Origin: Bacteroidia bacterium
GTDB lineage: Bacteria; Bacteroidota; Bacteroidia; CAILMK01; JBBDIG01
NCBI GenBank assembly: GCA_040880525.1
Contig: JBBDIG010000029.1
Span: forward strand, 1-32,046
Direction: 5' to 3'
DNA length: 32,046 nt
The position numbers and the translations under genes are program-made. Below are positions 3,832-15,582 of this stretch, piece by piece (positions within the stretch are counted from its first letter, which is position 1; each line of letters starts with the position of its first letter). The notes beneath the pieces are model-generated. The model made no database searches and was not told the origin of the DNA. It was given only the letters and a program-made list of their open reading frames with translations.

Positions 3832-4026
3832 GTCATCCACGCGCTAAGGAATAGCTGGTTTTAGGCTTCTGCTGGCAGTGGGAAAGGGCCTTGGTATGAT
3901 CATATTCCAAAGTCCTCCTCAATGACCTACCACCAGTCGCTTGGCTCCTGCCAAGTGACGGCTACGTTTTGCAGCCTATGGCTGTAGTTATGATTCATTA
4001 CCTGCCTCCTTAAGCATCCAATACCT

Positions 4027-4569
4027 TCAGTGGGCTTTCCGGGCAAGCGCTGCTGTAGTACCGTACCAATGTTCTGGCAGAGTCACATATCCTGCTTTTA
4101 CCGGGTTCAAATGAATATATTCTATTTTTTGGTCAATGATCCCGGGTTGGTTTAGCTCTTTGGGATGATTGGTAGGTTGCCAAAAGGCATAATCTTGTCC
4201 TTGGCGGTACTTGCCATAATATCTGAACAACCGCATCATCCAATTTCTTCGGCTCTCCGAAGGTTCAACCTGCACGGCCTTCATAATTTTCCGTGCTGTA
4301 AAGCTCTTGAAGTCTCTGATGACGGAATTTAATCGGGCATCATCGTGTCTGGCAATCAGGTGCAAATGGCTGGGCATAATTAGATATGCAAATAATTCCA
4401 GGCCTTTCTTCTCGCAACAGAATTTCAAGCTATCAATAACTATATCGCTATAGCAATGGCGGGTAAATATATCCACCCATCCAGCTATAGAAATTGTCAG
4501 GAAGTAGGGATAATCGGTGTTGGTCTTTCTAAATTCGGACATGACAATGGATTTATGGGGTTGAGGCAA
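4027..4569 (-). CDS. REP-associated tyrosine transposase (RAYT), copy 2
   Basis: Its 180-aa product is identical to that of 1042-1584, including His68/His70 of the HUH motif and Tyr151 in the YIHLNPVKAGYV segment. RAYT genes are normally single-copy and rarely duplicate, so two intact identical copies 3 kb apart are noteworthy. The flanking L- and R-type REP elements are also preserved. Confidence 0.93.
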   Translation of the reverse strand: MPQPHKSIVMSEFRKTNTDYPYFLTISIAGWVDIFTRHCYSDIVIDSLKFCCEKKGLELFAYLIMPSHLHLIARHDDARLNSVIRDFKSFTARKIMKAVQVEPSESRRNWMMRLFRYYGKYRQGQDYAFWQPTNHPKELNQPGIIDQKIEYIHLNPVKAGYVTLPEHWYGTTAALARKAH

Positions 4570-4724
4570 TAAACTTCGGCAAAATGCCTCGAAACATAGT
4601 CGTCACCCGGCATAGCCGGGCGACTGAGGGGGGAGGTGGGTGCTTGTTGAATTTTGAATTGAGAATTAGGAGCTATTGTTTAAAAAAATGTAAGTTGCAG
4701 TCCAAACTCTAATTAATTATAGCA

Positions 4725-5471
4725 ATGAACTTACGTTTAGAAAAAGTAGCTTTCTTTTTAGCTTTCATCATGGTTACATCAAGCTGTGGAAAGGAGGAAC
4801 CTGGAACGGACACCAAATCCATAACTGCCGATTTTACCATCACAAACAATAATTGTGAAGCGCCATGCGATGTGGTTTTCAACAATTCTTCTTCTAACGC
4901 AACATCTTATCACTGGGACTTTGGGGATGGTGACACATCTACAGAAACAAGTCCCTCGCACACTTACCTGTCAGATGGCGATTACGAGGTAACCCTCACT
5001 GCCAATTCCGCAGGAGAAAGCAAAACTATCTCTAAAACTGCCACTATTGCCTTATACCCTGGCTTTATGAGCTATAAGATTGACGGGCAACTTTTTGTAG
5101 CCGATAAATTGAGTGCCGTTCGTATCACTTCAGATACTCGCCCTTATTTCCAATTAAGAGGTATTACTGGGAATAATTCCTACCCACAGTTATTTTTTCA
5201 TTATGACGAAAACAATGGGGGCTTTAAAATCGGACAGGCTCTGAAGTTTGATCAATCCAGTCGTTCAATACGCACAGTTGAATTCATGGATGCATCGAAT
5301 AAAATATACTTATCTTCCACTGATGCTAAAGGGGTTGACGTATTATTCAGTAAACTTACCTTTGAGAAAGGTGGCGAGGTAGAAGCAACCTTTTCCGGCA
5401 GAATATCAAGCTATTTAGGCGAGGAATTAGAAATTACAGAAGGCAAATTGAAAATGAAATTCTCAAATTAA
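4725..5471 (+). CDS. PKD-domain lipoprotein, copy 2
   Basis: Identical in protein sequence to the 1740-2486 product: lipobox cysteine at residue 21, one PKD domain at about 35-108 and an unrecognised beta-rich C-terminus. It is the passenger gene of the second duplicated block. The upstream sequence, including the AT-rich GAATTTTGAATTGAGAATT motif at 4649-4667, is also identical, so both copies should be expressed alike. Confidence 0.88.
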   Translation: MNLRLEKVAFFLAFIMVTSSCGKEEPGTDTKSITADFTITNNNCEAPCDVVFNNSSSNATSYHWDFGDGDTSTETSPSHTYLSDGDYEVTLTANSAGESKTISKTATIALYPGFMSYKIDGQLFVADKLSAVRITSDTRPYFQLRGITGNNSYPQLFFHYDENNGGFKIGQALKFDQSSRSIRTVEFMDASNKIYLSSTDAKGVDVLFSKLTFEKGGEVEATFSGRISSYLGEELEITEGKLKMKFSN

Positions 5472-5511
5472 ATTCTACCCAGCCGTTATGCTCTGCTGAC
5501 CCGGCTCCGCT

Positions 5512-5543
5512 GGCGCGCGTTTAGCGATAGCGTAACGCGTGCC
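5512..5543. repeat. GC-rich hairpin, copy 2
   Basis: GGCGCGCGTT (5512-5521) pairs with AACGCGTGCC (5534-5543) with one change relative to the perfect stem at 2527-2558; a G-U pair would keep it folded in RNA. It marks the end of the second duplicated block. Confidence 0.65.
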
Positions 5544-5638
5544 TTTCTCAGATGACTACCCACCAAACCTCATCCTCCTGTCATGTTGGTTCGGCTAATA
5601 TGTGTAACTGAGGAGACAACATTTTCTATAACGTATTG

Positions 5639-10376: not shown

Positions 10377-10440
10377 ATAAACTTCGGCAAAATGTCGCGA
10401 AAGATAGCCGTCACTCGGCACAGTCGGACGACTGAGGGAA
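10377..10440. repeat. R-type REP-like element, diverged
   Basis: ACTTCGGCAAAATGTCGCGA followed by GCCGTCACTCGGCACAGTCGGACGAC matches the R-type element beside the RAYT genes, with several substitutions. No RAYT gene accompanies it. It directly precedes clpB fragment B. Confidence 0.65.
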
Positions 10441-10448
10441 GACACGCT

Positions 10449-10630
10449 CGAAGCCGTTGACGCCCTGGCCAGCCTCGGCTACGAACCGGAATTCGGAGCG
10501 CCCCCCTGAAACGCCTCATGCAGCGCGAAATCCTCAACGACCTCTCCAAGCGCATTCTCTCCGACAACATCAGCCCCGAAGGTAGATCATCGTGGACTAC
10601 ATGGGCGGGAACATCGTGCTTCGGCAACCG
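10449..10630 (+). pseudogene. clpB: clpB 3' fragment B
   Basis: It translates to EAVDALASLGYEPEFGA, then (after a 2-base loss in GCGCGCCCC that brings TGA into frame) RPLKRLMQREILNDLSKRIL, SDNISPEG, and after another small indel IIVDYMGGNIVLRQP. This reaches what looks like the extreme C-terminus of ClpB. It covers the same region as fragment A but differs in sequence, and follows an R-type REP. From 10631 to 10732 I see nothing recognisable. Confidence 0.87.
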
Positions 10631-10732
10631 GATACTTCGTAATGTTGATGTTAGTTTTTGAGTGTTGAGTAGAGAGCGGAGATGCGGGAGTCGTGCAGCT
10701 TTTTTTGATGTCTTTTCTGATTTGGAAAGTTG

Positions 10733-10865: not shown

Positions 10866-11669
10866 ATGTCAAATCTTACCAGTGAATCTACTCAAGCCAA
10901 AAATGGCTTTGTGGGATCGAATGAGCTGCTCAAGCTTGTAATACAAAAGCTTTCCAGCCAAATACTTCTTTACGGCCTTGGTATGGCCATCCTTCTTATT
11001 GTGGCAGTGATGGTTGTTGGTAAGGAGTATTTAGCCGTTATCGGTAGCATGTTTTTCGTTTTCCTCGTTACCATAATTGGTTATTTATTTTTCGAGGGTA
11101 AGAAGCGCATAGAACAAGCTGATCCAAAAACACTGAATCAACTGGTAACTGCTCAAATGAGCACCATCAAACACAGTGAAGGGGCGAATGGAATGAAACT
11201 CTGGACAACTCGAAAAATACCTTCCATAAGCACCCGCGATATTTCCACAAGGGCAAAAGATGCATCATTCAAGGTAGGAGACAAGATCATAATCCATTTT
11301 CAGCCTGACAGGGATGGCTACCTTACCTTACTAAACATTGGGACCAGTGGAGATATGACTACCCTTTTCCCTAATTCCCTTCAACGAAGCAACATGGTGT
11401 TGGCTAATAGGGAATATACCATTCCTCGGCCTGAGGATGATTTCGAATATATATTACAGGGACCAAGTGGAAAAGAGAAACTTAAGGCCATATTGACTAA
11501 CGAGAACATCGAACTGATGGAGGATAAGCTGGATGACCAAGGAAATTTATTTAAAACGGTTAATGCTGGCCTGGCTGCCCGAAATATCGGGATAATCAAG
11601 AAAAAGGTTTCAGACCTACCTTCGGAAGCCTGGACTGAAACGTCATGTGAATTTGAGGTTGCAGAATAA
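10866..11669 (+). CDS. Two-TM protein with DUF4384-like domain, 267 aa
   Basis: I prefer ATG at 10866 over the in-frame TTG at 10860. Two hydrophobic helices at about residues 33-51 and 57-75 form a membrane hairpin. A soluble C-terminal region (about 125-220) follows with KVGDKIIIHFQPDRDGYLTL, then NIGTSGDMTTLFPN, a break, and ANREYTIP, which looks like DUF4384. DUF4384 domains often occur in the same proteins as caspase-like peptidases, which fits the caspase gene three positions downstream. First gene of a tight four-gene operon (25-base gap to the next). A plausible role is a membrane-bound sensing or substrate module for the peptidase; this is inference. Confidence 0.75.
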   Translation: MSNLTSESTQAKNGFVGSNELLKLVIQKLSSQILLYGLGMAILLIVAVMVVGKEYLAVIGSMFFVFLVTIIGYLFFEGKKRIEQADPKTLNQLVTAQMSTIKHSEGANGMKLWTTRKIPSISTRDISTRAKDASFKVGDKIIIHFQPDRDGYLTLLNIGTSGDMTTLFPNSLQRSNMVLANREYTIPRPEDDFEYILQGPSGKEKLKAILTNENIELMEDKLDDQGNLFKTVNAGLAARNIGIIKKKVSDLPSEAWTETSCEFEVAE

Positions 11670-11694
11670 CACAACTCCTAAATAATTATCAATC

Positions 11695-12048
11695 ATGAAA
11701 ACCTGTTCATCTTGCGGCCATGTCAATCCAGATGAGGCCAAATTCTGCGGCAAATGTGGTAATACACTCTCTGAGCCAAAAACCCAAGTACCCCCTCAAA
11801 CCCATTCCGGGGCTCGAGCCTATTCTTCACCCACTAATGCTTCTAACCCGGAACCAGTTTCGGACGAACTTAAATGGGGTATCATCATAGCAACGATTCC
11901 CTTTTTCCCCTTGGGCATAATCATGGGTATTATTTACATGAATGATCAAAACCCTCAAAAAAAGGCAGTTGGTAAAACTTGGCTTTGGGTGGGTCTTGGT
12001 AGTGTTGTATTGGCTTGTTATTCCTTAGGCCAAATTAACAGCTGGTAG
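11695..12048 (+). CDS. Zinc-ribbon membrane protein, 117 aa
   Basis: A double-CxxC zinc ribbon at the N-terminus (CSSCGHVNPDEAKFCGKC; Cys4, Cys7, Cys18, Cys21) is followed by a Pro/Ser/Thr-rich linker and two hydrophobic segments at about residues 61-81 and 97-114. The ribbon probably faces the cytoplasm. The caspase-like protein downstream ends in a similar ribbon (CTNCGARLSTGLSFCTNC). The stop codon TAG directly abuts the GTG start of the next gene, so the two are surely co-translated. Specific function unknown. Confidence 0.82.
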   Translation: MKTCSSCGHVNPDEAKFCGKCGNTLSEPKTQVPPQTHSGARAYSSPTNASNPEPVSDELKWGIIIATIPFFPLGIIMGIIYMNDQNPQKKAVGKTWLWVGLGSVVLACYSLGQINSW

Positions 12049-12630
12049 GTGCAAGTACTCCAGTATATATTCCGGCTCTTTTGCCATCAGTTGCCCTCAA
12101 GAATGCCCGTATATGCCGGTGAGTCGTTTCCCGTGTGTTTCAGGTGTGGAGGTATTTACCTCGGAATTATATGCGGTTATCTGTTTTGGAAATTAACCAA
12201 GTCTTCAATGCCCGGATTGAAATCATTGTGGATAGTTGGACTTACCATTCCTTTGACCATTGACGGTACTGCTAATTATTTGGAGGTGTGGGATTCTCAT
12301 GGTTGGCTCCGGGCCTTGACGGGACTTCTGATGGGTGTCTCATTGCCCCAGTTTCTTGCGCTATTGAAAGCCAACGATTCCAAACCCATAACTTATTGGA
12401 AAATGTCACTGGCAGTATTGATGTCCCTGAGTATGGGACTAATGTTTATCTACTTGCTGGTAGCCCCTCCGAACGCCACTATTTTCAATTTACTTGCTTT
12501 CATTGTTGCCATGGCTTTATTCAGCTTTCTGACAGATTTGATTGTGCAATGTCCCTTTTTTAAAATTAAATCCCCCGTGAAACTCCCAGTAAAAATTTTA
12601 AAATATGGAAGATTCTCAACCCGTAATTGA
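12049..12630 (+). CDS. DUF2085-family membrane protein, 193 aa
   Basis: The N-terminus carries the DUF2085 signature: FCHQLPSR, then FPVCFRCGGIYLGIICG, followed by several hydrophobic helices (about residues 35-50, 60-80, 90-105, 117-140 and 145-165). The GTG at 12049 is supported because the Cys-His-Gln motif lies before the first internal ATG. Its biochemical role is unknown; the conserved Cys/His/Arg residues suggest metal or redox chemistry at the membrane face. It starts with no gap after the zinc-ribbon gene and overlaps the caspase gene by 26 bases, the tightest coupling in the window. Confidence 0.8.
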   Translation: MQVLQYIFRLFCHQLPSRMPVYAGESFPVCFRCGGIYLGIICGYLFWKLTKSSMPGLKSLWIVGLTIPLTIDGTANYLEVWDSHGWLRALTGLLMGVSLPQFLALLKANDSKPITYWKMSLAVLMSLSMGLMFIYLLVAPPNATIFNLLAFIVAMALFSFLTDLIVQCPFFKIKSPVKLPVKILKYGRFSTRN

Positions 12631-13813
12631 TTCATCATCATCCTATGCCTTAATTATTGGCATTGGAAGTTATGCAGATTCAACGCTAAACTTGAAATGC
12701 ACAAAAGCGGATGCGATGGCCTTTTATAATCTATTGTTGAATAATGCACATGCAGGCTTCAAACCGGAAAACGTGAAGCTTTTGCTTGACCAGGATGCTA
12801 CACTTCTAAATTTAAAAAAAGCGGTGAGCGGCTGGCTGTTTCAAAATGCCAGCACTGAGTCTACGGTTGTGGTTTATTTTGCAGGACATGGCGGACAAGA
12901 ACCGGATAAGGTAGGCAGTGAAAAGGATGGATTGGCCAAATATCTCTTGCCCTATGACTGCGATAAAACCGACTTGTTTTCATCGGCACTTTCAAATATA
13001 GAGTTCGATAGGTTACTAAAAACCATCAAGGCCAGGCGCCTTGTATTTTTTATGGATGCTTGCCACTCCGGAGGATTGTCCCGCTCAGGGTCACGTTCGA
13101 TCGGTATAGTGGAGGACGTCACCAAAAAACTCGCGGAAGGAGAAGGACGTTTGGTTATTGCTTCTGCCAAACCGAATCAACTTTCGTGGGAGGATGAGAA
13201 AATCGGCCATGGAATCTTTACCTATCATTTACTGGAAGCATTGGAAGGTAAGGCTGATACTGATGGCGATGGATATGTATCTATTATAGAAGTGTATAAA
13301 TATCTTGAACAGAAAGTTCCTCTCAGTGTGCGCCAGCGAGCTGATAGTCTCCAGGAGCCTCAATTGTGGGGAGATCTGACTAAAGACATTTTTCTAACCG
13401 CCAATGCGGATTTGGTGAAACAAAAGAAAGCAGAAATTCTTCATGAGATAGAAGAAAGGCGAAAAGCAAATCGTGAAAAACAAAAGCAGTTATTTGAATT
13501 ATTTGAAACTGGAAAAATGGGAAGCGATATTTACAGCGAATCGCTCAACCTGCTTTCAAAGGATGCAGAATCATATAATGGCCAGGAGAAAAGACTCATT
13601 TCCTTGTTGCAGGCGGTTTTGAAAGATGCAATTTCCGTTGAAACATATATGGATATGCGTGAGACAATTATGAGCATTCCGGAAACTGTTAAGGAACGCG
13701 GAGTTCATCAGCAAACCCAACCATCATTTTCCACCGTCTTCTGCACTAATTGTGGCGCCCGGCTTTCGACAGGTCTTTCCTTCTGTACGAATTGTGGTAA
13801 GCGAACGGGATAA
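12605..13813 (+). CDS. Caspase-like (C14) peptidase with EF-hand-like loop and C-terminal zinc ribbon
   Basis: A 402-aa protein. Residues ~12-265 form a caspase-like domain: ALIIGIGSY strand, catalytic His95 in VVYFAGHGG and catalytic Cys153 in FFMDACHSGG, both intact. Residues 218-229 (DTDGDGYVSIIE) match a canonical EF-hand calcium loop, seen in many bacterial C14 proteins. A charged, probably coiled-coil region spans about 270-345, and the tail is a double-CxxC zinc ribbon (Cys380, 383, 394, 397). No signal peptide is seen, so it is predicted to be cytoplasmic. It ends a four-gene operon with three membrane proteins. Bacterial caspases act in regulated proteolysis, often in defence-linked cell death; the trigger and substrate here are unknown. 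Confidence 0.92.
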   Translation: MEDSQPVIDSSSSYALIIGIGSYADSTLNLKCTKADAMAFYNLLLNNAHAGFKPENVKLLLDQDATLLNLKKAVSGWLFQNASTESTVVVYFAGHGGQEPDKVGSEKDGLAKYLLPYDCDKTDLFSSALSNIEFDRLLKTIKARRLVFFMDACHSGGLSRSGSRSIGIVEDVTKKLAEGEGRLVIASAKPNQLSWEDEKIGHGIFTYHLLEALEGKADTDGDGYVSIIEVYKYLEQKVPLSVRQRADSLQEPQLWGDLTKDIFLTANADLVKQKKAEILHEIEERRKANREKQKQLFELFETGKMGSDIYSESLNLLSKDAESYNGQEKRLISLLQAVLKDAISVETYMDMRETIMSIPETVKERGVHQQTQPSFSTVFCTNCGARLSTGLSFCTNCGKRTG

Positions 13814-13831: not shown

Positions 13832-13950
13832 CCAGTCGCTTGGCTCCCGCCAGGTGGCGACTATGTTTAGCCTCTGGCTATAAATGTATAGACTGTGGCA
13901 AAATGCCGCATAACGTAGCTATTACTCGGCACAACCGAGCGACCTGGGTG
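13832..13950. mobile_element. RAYT-less REP pair (MITE/BIME-like)
   Basis: An L-type REP (CAGTCGCTTGGCTCCCGCCA ... GCCTCTGGCTATAAA) is joined directly to an R-type REP (GACTGTGGCAAAATGCCGCA, then ATTACTCGGC-ACAA-CCGAGCGAC). At 948-1646 and 3933-4631 the same two ends flank the RAYT gene. Here about 580 internal bases are missing, leaving a ~119-base element with two structured ends, as expected for a non-autonomous derivative. Confidence 0.7.
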
Positions 13951-13960
13951 AAAATCTACA

Positions 13961-13990
13961 TTTAATCAGAAACGAAATACTTTACCTTTG
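13961..13990 (+). promoter_or_regulatory. Possible promoter, TTTA-N18-TACCTTTG
   Basis: TACCTTTG at 13983-13990 fits TAnnTTTG, with TTTA at 13961-13964 as -33 box. It points at a short reading frame starting at ATG 14015 that now ends after 15 codons, so it may be the relic promoter of a lost gene. Confidence 0.4.
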
Positions 13991-14014
13991 GCGTTAGTAA
14001 CGAAATAGCTTGGT

Positions 14015-14062
14015 ATGATAATCTCCTTTGAAATTAAGAAATATAAACGGGATGCAGCCTGA
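14015..14062 (+). pseudogene. 15-codon remnant, possibly start of a HigB toxin
   Basis: ATG followed by IISFEIKKYKRDAA then TGA. MI.SF is a common opening of HigB-family toxins, and a promoter-like box lies just upstream. A HigB-like C-terminus (EVKIIDYH) lies 1.15 kb downstream before higA. That the two pieces come from one gene is speculation; the piece is too short for a firm assignment. Confidence 0.25.
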
Positions 14063-14106
14063 AGCGGCCCTCAGTCTTCTGTCATAACACCATGTCATTT
14101 CAGAAG

Positions 14107-14218
14107 CAAGAACGGCATTGACCGGGAAATCACTCCCGAAGGGCCAGCCTCGGTTACGAACCCCAATTCGGTGTGTGCTCACTAAAACGCCTCATGCAGC
14201 GTGAAATCCTCCACGACC
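14107..14218 (+). pseudogene. clpB: clpB 3' fragment C, most decayed
   Basis: Nucleotides match fragments A and B: AAGAACGGCATTGACC, then ATCACTCCCGAAG, a 14-base deletion, GCCAGCCTCGGTTACGAAC, and AAACGCCTCATGCAGCG. Translation is broken by the deletion and by substitutions. It covers only the middle of the segment seen in A and B. Same orientation as the other two. Confidence 0.82.
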
Positions 14219-14413
14219 AATTCAGGCCCATCCTTCCGGCAACTATACCGATCAGGCTCCCGTATGGGTGACGAATACCTTAATCGGATTTTGGTCTCAG
14301 TTGGCTCAGTACTTTCCAGGCTGTGATCTTTGGAATTTATAGTAACGTGCAATAGCCAACAACCTACCGTGAAACCATCCGTAACTCTGATTGATCGAGC
14401 AACCGGGAAGGGC
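14219..14413. other. Intergenic stretch without recognised content
   Basis: No convincing gene, repeat or structured RNA seen on either strand between clpB fragment C and the toxin-antitoxin promoter. The open frame on the minus strand here has no coding character that I recognise. Confidence 0.5.
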
Positions 14414-14501: not shown

Positions 14502-14804
14502 GTGTTGGACTTTCTGGATCAACTGGAGGAAAAGGCACGAGATAAGATTTTATTCAATGTTGATAAGGTCAAGATTGAGAATGACCCGAAGCGCTTTAAA
14601 AGGTTGAATAAAGATATTGGGGAATTCAGAACTCTTTATGCCAAGAAACAATATCGGCTCTTTGCCTTTTGGGACAAGTCCGACAACCAAGTTACCATAG
14701 TGGTGGCTACACATGGGATTATTAAGAAAACCCAAAAGACACCCAGGAAAGAAATAGACAAGGCCCTTCTAATGATGAAGGAATACTTTAATGCTAAAAA
14801 GTAG
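14502..14804 (+). CDS. RelE/HigB-like toxin, N-terminus uncertain
   Basis: About 100 aa from the GTG at 14502. RelE/ParE-superfamily features: a first helix with FLDQLEEKARDKIL, then strands EFRTLYAKKQYRLFAFWD and QVTIVVATHGIIKKTQKTP, with a charged C-terminal helix. Proteins of this group usually cleave mRNA at the ribosome. The frame is open further upstream and encodes F-N-I-E-F-S-Q-E, which resembles the normal first beta strand, so GTG 14502 probably gives a shortened protein. The in-frame ATG at 14466 is well placed relative to the promoter but is followed by GCC TGA. Either a rare start (ATA 14484) is used or the toxin is inactivated. It is followed after 5 bases by its antitoxin. Confidence 0.8.
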   Translation: MLDFLDQLEEKARDKILFNVDKVKIENDPKRFKRLNKDIGEFRTLYAKKQYRLFAFWDKSDNQVTIVVATHGIIKKTQKTPRKEIDKALLMMKEYFNAKK

Positions 14805-14809
14805 GAATT

Positions 14810-15121
14810 ATGAAAACATTCAGCTTTGAGGAAGTGAAAGACCGTTACCTCGGCAAAAGAGGAACTGAAAAACGGGAAAAATACGAATATGAAGTAAGGC
14901 TTGACCTAATTGGCGAGGCGATTAAAAAAGCCCGGAAAGAACGGAATTTGACGCAGGAGCAATTAGGTGAACTTGTCGGAGTCAAGAAAGCACAAATTTC
15001 AAAAATCGAAAATAACCTGACGGACGCCCGGTTCGAAACTATTCTAAAAGTGTTCCGAGCCTTGAATGCCAAAATCAGCTTTAATGTGGAGTTGCTGAAT
15101 GATAAGCTAAGCTTGACGTAA
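14810..15121 (+). CDS. Xre-family antitoxin of the RelE-like toxin
   Basis: A 103-aa protein with a helix-turn-helix at about residues 30-85 (IKKARKERNLTQEQLGELV, then KKAQISKIENN) and an N-terminal charged extension. It starts 5 bases after the toxin stop; this toxin-first order is typical of HigBA-type modules. The protein should neutralise the toxin and repress the promoter at 14414-14444. The gene looks intact even though the toxin's start is doubtful. Confidence 0.87.
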   Translation: MKTFSFEEVKDRYLGKRGTEKREKYEYEVRLDLIGEAIKKARKERNLTQEQLGELVGVKKAQISKIENNLTDARFETILKVFRALNAKISFNVELLNDKLSLT

Positions 15122-15179
15122 TATTCGCCAGGCTCTTGGCTTCTTCCAAAGAACCCCGCTTGCCGCAGAACCCTTTAGT

Positions 15180-15242
15180 ATGATTTTGTTGCCTGTAAGC
15201 TTGAGAGAAATGGCAGAAGTAAAGATTATTGATTATCACTAA
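15180..15242 (+). pseudogene. 3' remnant of a HigB toxin gene
   Basis: The last codons before a TAA at 15240-15242 read AEVKIIDYH, closely resembling the conserved C-terminus of HigB toxins (..VEIVDYH). The TAA lies one base before the higA ATG at 15244, the usual higB-higA spacing. Upstream of about 15200 no HigB sequence can be followed and no start is available, so only the toxin's tail remains. Short match, but both position and motif fit. Confidence 0.5.
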
Positions 15243-15243
15243 T

Positions 15244-15582
15244 ATGGAACAATTACCAAATATACATCCGGGAGAAGTATTGAAGGAAGAATTCCTTATC
15301 CCTCTTGGTATTTCAGCTTATCGGCTTTGCAAGGATATCGAGATTCCGCAAACAAGATTGAGTGAGATTCTTAAAGGACGCAGAAGAATTACTGCTGACA
15401 CCGCGTTGCGCTTAAGCCGCTATTTCGGAACCAGCGCCAAGTTTTGGCTGGGATTGCAGAATGATTATGATATTGAAGAAGAGGAAAGAGAGAAGAAAAC
15501 TGCATTTGCGAGGATAAAGACCCTTAAACCATTTCCTTATTCCAATGCTTTAACGGAAGGGGAATTGAAGGGAAGGTTTTGA
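15244..15582 (+). CDS. higA: HigA-family antitoxin, apparently orphaned
   Basis: A 112-aa protein from ATG 15244; an in-frame TTG at 15229 would overlap the toxin remnant. It shows HigA features: NIHPGEVLKEEFL..LGIS at the N-terminus, a helix-turn-helix (YRLCKDIEIPQTRLSEILKG) and LSRYFGTSAKFWLGLQNDYD. HigA binds HigB and represses the operon. Only the last codons of a HigB gene remain upstream, so the antitoxin may persist as a stand-alone regulator or as immunity against related toxins. It converges with the minus-strand gene ending at 15593. Confidence 0.9.
   Translation: MEQLPNIHPGEVLKEEFLIPLGISAYRLCKDIEIPQTRLSEILKGRRRITADTALRLSRYFGTSAKFWLGLQNDYDIEEEEREKKTAFARIKTLKPFPYSNALTEGELKGRF

Follow-up and report, generated by a model that had tools for sequence, protein, structure and literature searches.

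The DUF4384 domain occurs fused to the peptidase in 23 cyanobacterial orthocaspases (PMC8283722). The EACC1 system consists of a 5' membrane gene and, after it, a caspase gene whose C-terminal domains vary (PMC7159879, section 33), and in Microcystis the orthocaspase MaOC1 cleaves the antitoxin of a neighbouring toxin-antitoxin pair at a locus that carries direct repeats (PMC7935541). Here we analyse a four-gene operon that resembles each of these in part. It lies at positions 10866-13813 of a 32,046-nucleotide stretch of DNA from a Bacteroidia bacterium (the window: contig JBBDIG010000029.1 of assembly GCA_040880525.1, positions 1 to 32,046), and encodes, in order, a DUF4384 membrane protein, a zinc-ribbon membrane protein, a DUF2085 membrane protein and a caspase-fold peptidase of family C14. 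With the orthocaspases and metacaspases that have DUF4384, it has in common the C14 fold, the His-Cys dyad and the DUF4384 partner, but the DUF4384 protein of the window has two transmembrane (TM) segments, its caspase is short and ends in a zinc ribbon, and the DUF2085 and zinc-ribbon genes stand between the two. The EACC1-caspase system likewise begins with a membrane gene and gives its caspase an additional C-terminal domain, which is variable there; the operon differs in having no detected EACC1 domain, a caspase that stays below the cut-off of the corresponding NCBIfam family, four genes rather than two, and DUF2085. Like the MaOC1 module, it has a caspase homologue near direct repeats and a toxin-antitoxin pair of the RelE/ParE-superfamily type; it differs in its membrane genes and zinc ribbon and in the decayed repeat that sets the pair apart, and cleavage of the antitoxin would here be proposed by analogy only.

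The operon combines two gene pairs, each of which recurs elsewhere. Pair (a) is the caspase-fold peptidase with the DUF4384 protein, and pair (b) is the DUF2085 protein with a small partner of two TM segments, here a zinc-ribbon protein. The four-gene set as a whole is unique to this locus among everything searched, namely genomes from outside the window's own genus and family. We hold, with about even confidence, that the two pairs are joined here into a composite caspase module associated with the membrane. Besides the recurrence of each pair, this reading is favoured by the zinc ribbons or CxxC sites on both members of pair (b) and on the caspase, and by the coupling or overlap of genes 2 to 4.

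The four genes and the caspase

The operon consists of four intact open reading frames (ORFs) on the + strand. Gene 1 (DUF4384, 10866-11669, ATG start, 267 amino acids) is followed by gene 2 (zinc ribbon, 11695-12048, ATG start, 117 amino acids). The GTG start of gene 3 (DUF2085, 12049-12630, 193 amino acids) directly abuts the TAG of gene 2, and gene 3 overlaps gene 4 (C14 caspase, 12605-13813, ATG start, 402 amino acids) by 26 nucleotides. The gene calls, the four domains and this tight coupling, all proposed in an earlier reading made from the sequence only, are confirmed by the ORFs and by Pfam. The GC content of the operon is 0.426 and that of the window 0.432; they do not differ, so there is no compositional sign of transfer. 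C14 and DUF2085 are each represented by a single protein in the whole genome, and the phylum search described below returned one DUF4384 match for it.

Gene 4 matches Peptidase_C14 (PF00656) at 87.6 bits, against a curated Pfam cut-off of 21.4. Its soluble product consists of the C14 domain (residues 14-262) with His95 and Cys153, a helical segment and a C-terminal zinc ribbon (residues 379-400). The two residues, which the sequence-only reading took to be intact, align with the catalytic dyad of solved metacaspases and are kept in the aligned relatives, save for two rows gapped at that place. The zinc ribbon, also proposed there, is borne out: the whole protein scores at the margin of the Pfam cut-off (24.9 against 25 bits), and the C-terminal fragment, scanned by itself, exceeds it (26.7 bits). 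Outside the window, 0 of 62 caspase ORFs carry such a ribbon. Of the EF-hand-like loop in the same proposal, a weak DxDGDG-like resemblance stands, but the match is below the Pfam cut-off (14.1 against 25 bits) and there is no demonstrated calcium site. We also considered SHOCT-like repeats in the helical segment, and Pfam found none in the fragments. In a tree of caspase domains, the window protein has a long branch and falls close to caspases linked to DUF4384; the support for this is modest (92/80) and does not suffice to date when caspase and DUF4384 were paired. A search reaching close relatives returned no confirmed relatives of the caspase in GTDB species or viral contigs.

Two gene pairs that recur elsewhere

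In gene 1, DUF4384 (PF14326) spans residues 135-213 at 83.7 bits (Pfam cut-off 27), and two hydrophobic segments, taken as TM segments, lie near the N-terminus. The protein has only weak relatives elsewhere, and is rare in its class, with matches in 2 of 395 genomes. Its association with caspases is common in the phylum. Across a sample of 296 genomes of the phylum, DUF4384 occurs at 50 places in 39 genomes and caspases in at least 107 genomes; taking 5 kb as the co-occurrence distance, at least 26 of the 50 places have a caspase nearby, and so do at least 20 of the 28 other genomes, window excluded, that have both. These counts are lower bounds, since genomes G485 and G424 were missed although caspase-like ORFs are adjacent there. 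Some of the links are fusions, and at many loci the two are separate adjacent genes. In other families of the phylum (loci L065-L072), sets of a caspase, a DUF4384 protein and a large protein of four TM segments recur as separate adjacent genes; among those scanned, members differ from the window in having a WD40-caspase (L065) or a CHASE2-cyclase (L065 and L072). DUF4384 is thus a genuine partner of caspases, both fused (as in the cyanobacterial proteins) and as an adjacent gene. The sequence-only reading saw a special, dissociated version in the separate DUF4384 gene of the window; this arrangement is ordinary, because DUF4384 is often a separate neighbour of the caspase in the phylum sample.

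Gene 2 encodes an N-terminal zinc ribbon of the form CxxC...CxxC (residues 4-24; Zn_Ribbon_1, 31.5 bits, Pfam cut-off 25) followed by two hydrophobic TM segments. Gene 3 matches DUF2085 (PF09858) at 79.7 bits (cut-off 25). Four residues of this family, Cys12, His13, Cys30 and Cys33 (CH...CxRC), are invariant across 60 sequences. An AlphaFold2 model of gene 3 has a predicted local distance difference test score (pLDDT) of about 90 for the greater part of residues 1-100. It gives no clear match to a solved fold, with a best Foldseek E of about 1 and VIA Z of at most 7.1, in the range of common helical arrangements. DUF2085 is nearly absent from the literature searched, where one paper mentions it. 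The family is present in 136 of the 296 phylum genomes, nearly all of them outside the window's class, in which 2 of 395 genomes have it; it is absent from all 11 other genomes of the window's order. We found no DUF2085 match in plasmids, and no match to DUF2085 or the caspase in viral contigs, where the scans reach close relatives only.

We collected 80 DUF2085 loci from GTDB species with a query alignment of four DUF2085 proteins. In about 30 of 71 loci, spread over many phyla, DUF2085 adjoins a small homologous protein of two TM segments. Of this small family (L123-L125, L142, L146, L148 and others), three members were scanned, and none reached the cut-off of any Pfam family. Its members in Epilithonimonas (L177) and Lysinibacillus (L142) carry an N-terminal zinc ribbon, and in Epilithonimonas the stop of the zinc-ribbon gene exactly meets the start of DUF2085, so that order and abutment are as in the window. 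Over all loci, 11 of the 271 ORFs within two genes of DUF2085 have a zinc ribbon, as against 0 of 573 farther off. The gene 2 tail can be aligned with the small family in outline and is the best of the four proteins compared, with a similarity that is not significant. As a separate observation, Ruminococcus torques (L188, 4413-8046) has one DUF2085 gene amid four zinc-ribbon genes with different bodies. The loci of Epilithonimonas, Lysinibacillus and Ruminococcus torques thus share with the window a zinc-ribbon membrane gene beside DUF2085, and differ from it in that no caspase or DUF4384 is near.

Outside the window, the two pairs do not meet. In the phylum sample, 0 of the 35 genomes with both DUF2085 and a caspase have the two less than 5 kb apart (the nearest, among the matches listed, is at 13.5 kb), and the same is true of DUF2085 and DUF4384 in 0 of 27 genomes (the nearest is at 83 kb). 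None of the 80 DUF2085 loci of GTDB species has a caspase or DUF4384 match within about 6 kb. The sequence-only reading suggested that the four genes could form one module, and named their not being neighbours in relatives as a sign against it. On that criterion the co-occurrence counts, from genomes outside the window's genus and family that include 11 others of its order, all lacking DUF2085, speak against a recurrent unit of four genes, and place DUF2085 and the zinc-ribbon gene in another recurrent neighbourhood.

Repeats and neighbouring genes

Decayed repeats flank the operon on the + strand. Upstream (10377-10680), a 62-nucleotide hairpin-type repeat (10377-10438) is followed by a fragment of the 3' end of clpB with its downstream stretch (about 10444-10680), 85% identical over 248 nucleotides to the clpB at G000:C38:105402-108014, an intact copy on contig C38 of the same genome. 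Downstream (13888-14243), a copy of the 62-nucleotide repeat (13888-13949, 69%) is followed by another clpB 3'-end fragment (about 14106-14243). The element and the fragment have the same order on both sides, as direct repeats. In all, the window has three decayed fragments that match the 3' end of this intact clpB, at 2613-2803, 10444-10680 and 14106-14243, of which the latter two are those flanking the operon. The 62-nucleotide hairpin-like repeat is dispersed between genes (window positions 1584, 4569, 10377 and 13888, and also G000:C33 and C55). Elsewhere in the window, a 1.6-kb duplication of 99.6% identity (948-2566 and 3933-5551) carries a gene with a PKD domain.

Beyond the second repeat is a HigBA-like toxin-antitoxin pair on the + strand (14502-15121), formed by a Gp49-family gene (14502-14804) and an HTH_3 gene (14810-15121); another antitoxin-like gene with a helix-turn-helix (HTH) follows the pair (14502-15582 in all). 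The pair is probably separate from the operon. The other window proteins with family matches are mostly PKD, beta-helix and Por_Secre_tail proteins, that is, secreted surface proteins of the type IX secretion system (T9SS) kind. The neighbourhood had been called rich in repeats and toxins: it is rich in repeats, but apart from one HigBA-like pair its genes are mainly for T9SS-type surface proteins.

A proposed composite module and its alternatives

If the four proteins work together, the soluble caspase would be recruited to the inner membrane through its own C-terminal zinc ribbon or helical segment, which may bind the zinc-ribbon TM protein and DUF2085; docking through shared zinc ribbons is what we infer. 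Through its Cys/His site, DUF2085 may act as a sensor of metal, redox or membrane state, and the membrane-bound DUF4384 protein could gate the peptidase or bind its substrates. The active peptidase would then cleave cellular proteins, after a basic residue if it behaves as other orthocaspases do. A stricter version, in which the proteins form a four-component membrane caspase complex with DUF2085 and the paired zinc ribbons as a docking and sensing platform, would assign DUF2085 its first role; we consider it unlikely. Several results weigh against joint function. The samples searched contain no second case in which the two pairs are joined, and among those genomes no close relative shows the operon kept under selection. 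The enrichment of zinc ribbons near DUF2085 comes from 6 loci only, and the likeness of the gene 2 tail to the small two-TM family falls short of significance (a search of four sequences gave E of about 0.01, and hhalign a probability of 2%). The single-sequence structure model of the caspase (pLDDT 41) is too poor to use, and no complex structure was obtained.

These results leave some room for a chance juxtaposition, in which the DUF2085/zinc-ribbon pair was inserted between DUF4384 and the caspase in this lineage and shares their transcription without sharing a function. The combination is seen at the window only, the repeats with clpB fragments on both sides of the operon are a sign of past rearrangement, and a recent arrival is plausible given how few genomes of the class match DUF2085 or the gene 1 protein. 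But the stop-to-start abutment, the overlap of gene 3 with the caspase gene and the four intact ORFs fit joint function better, as does the zinc ribbon found on this caspase and on none of the others scanned; we regard chance joining as a possible but doubtful explanation. The toxin-antitoxin pair invites another comparison. The caspase, the decayed direct repeat and the Gp49/HTH_3 pair follow one another as if the peptidase might cleave the antitoxin, as MaOC1 does with that of its neighbouring pair. The pair is about 690 nucleotides downstream, past the repeat, and is therefore probably not co-transcribed with the operon; toxin-antitoxin pairs are common enough that proximity may be chance, and antitoxin cleavage would leave genes 1 to 3 unexplained, so that we find this analogy very improbable.

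An anti-phage or abortive-infection module, with the caspase as killing effector and the membrane proteins as sensors, as proposed for two-gene systems of the EACC1 type, is improbable, if less so than antitoxin cleavage. In predicted conflict systems, caspases serve as effectors or activators (PMC7159879), and gene 4 matches the PADLOC caspase model and, below cut-off (91 against 140 bits), the EACC1-associated caspase of NCBIfam (NF047832). On the other side, Pfam and NCBIfam scans reported no EACC1 family in gene 1, the presence of an EACC1 model in those libraries not being established, and the two-gene system has no DUF2085. At the locus PADLOC returned only generic caspase and HTH/toxin models, and none among the eight neighbours scanned; no known defence genes are found among the scanned proteins, whose place is taken by T9SS-type surface proteins, and the viral contigs gave no match within the reach of close relatives. 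The suggestion that the neighbourhood fits a defence role thus finds no support. What is supported of the earlier proposal of a membrane-tethered module for regulated proteolysis or cell death is the idea of a membrane-associated caspase, and not the single recurrent four-gene system or the defence function.

DUF2085 is found widely among bacteria and archaea, and the small membrane and zinc-ribbon proteins that repeatedly accompany it, joined here by a caspase, provide a context in which the family can be tested. Should the composite act as a single unit, it would show how adaptor proteins encoded separately can hold a bacterial caspase at the membrane.
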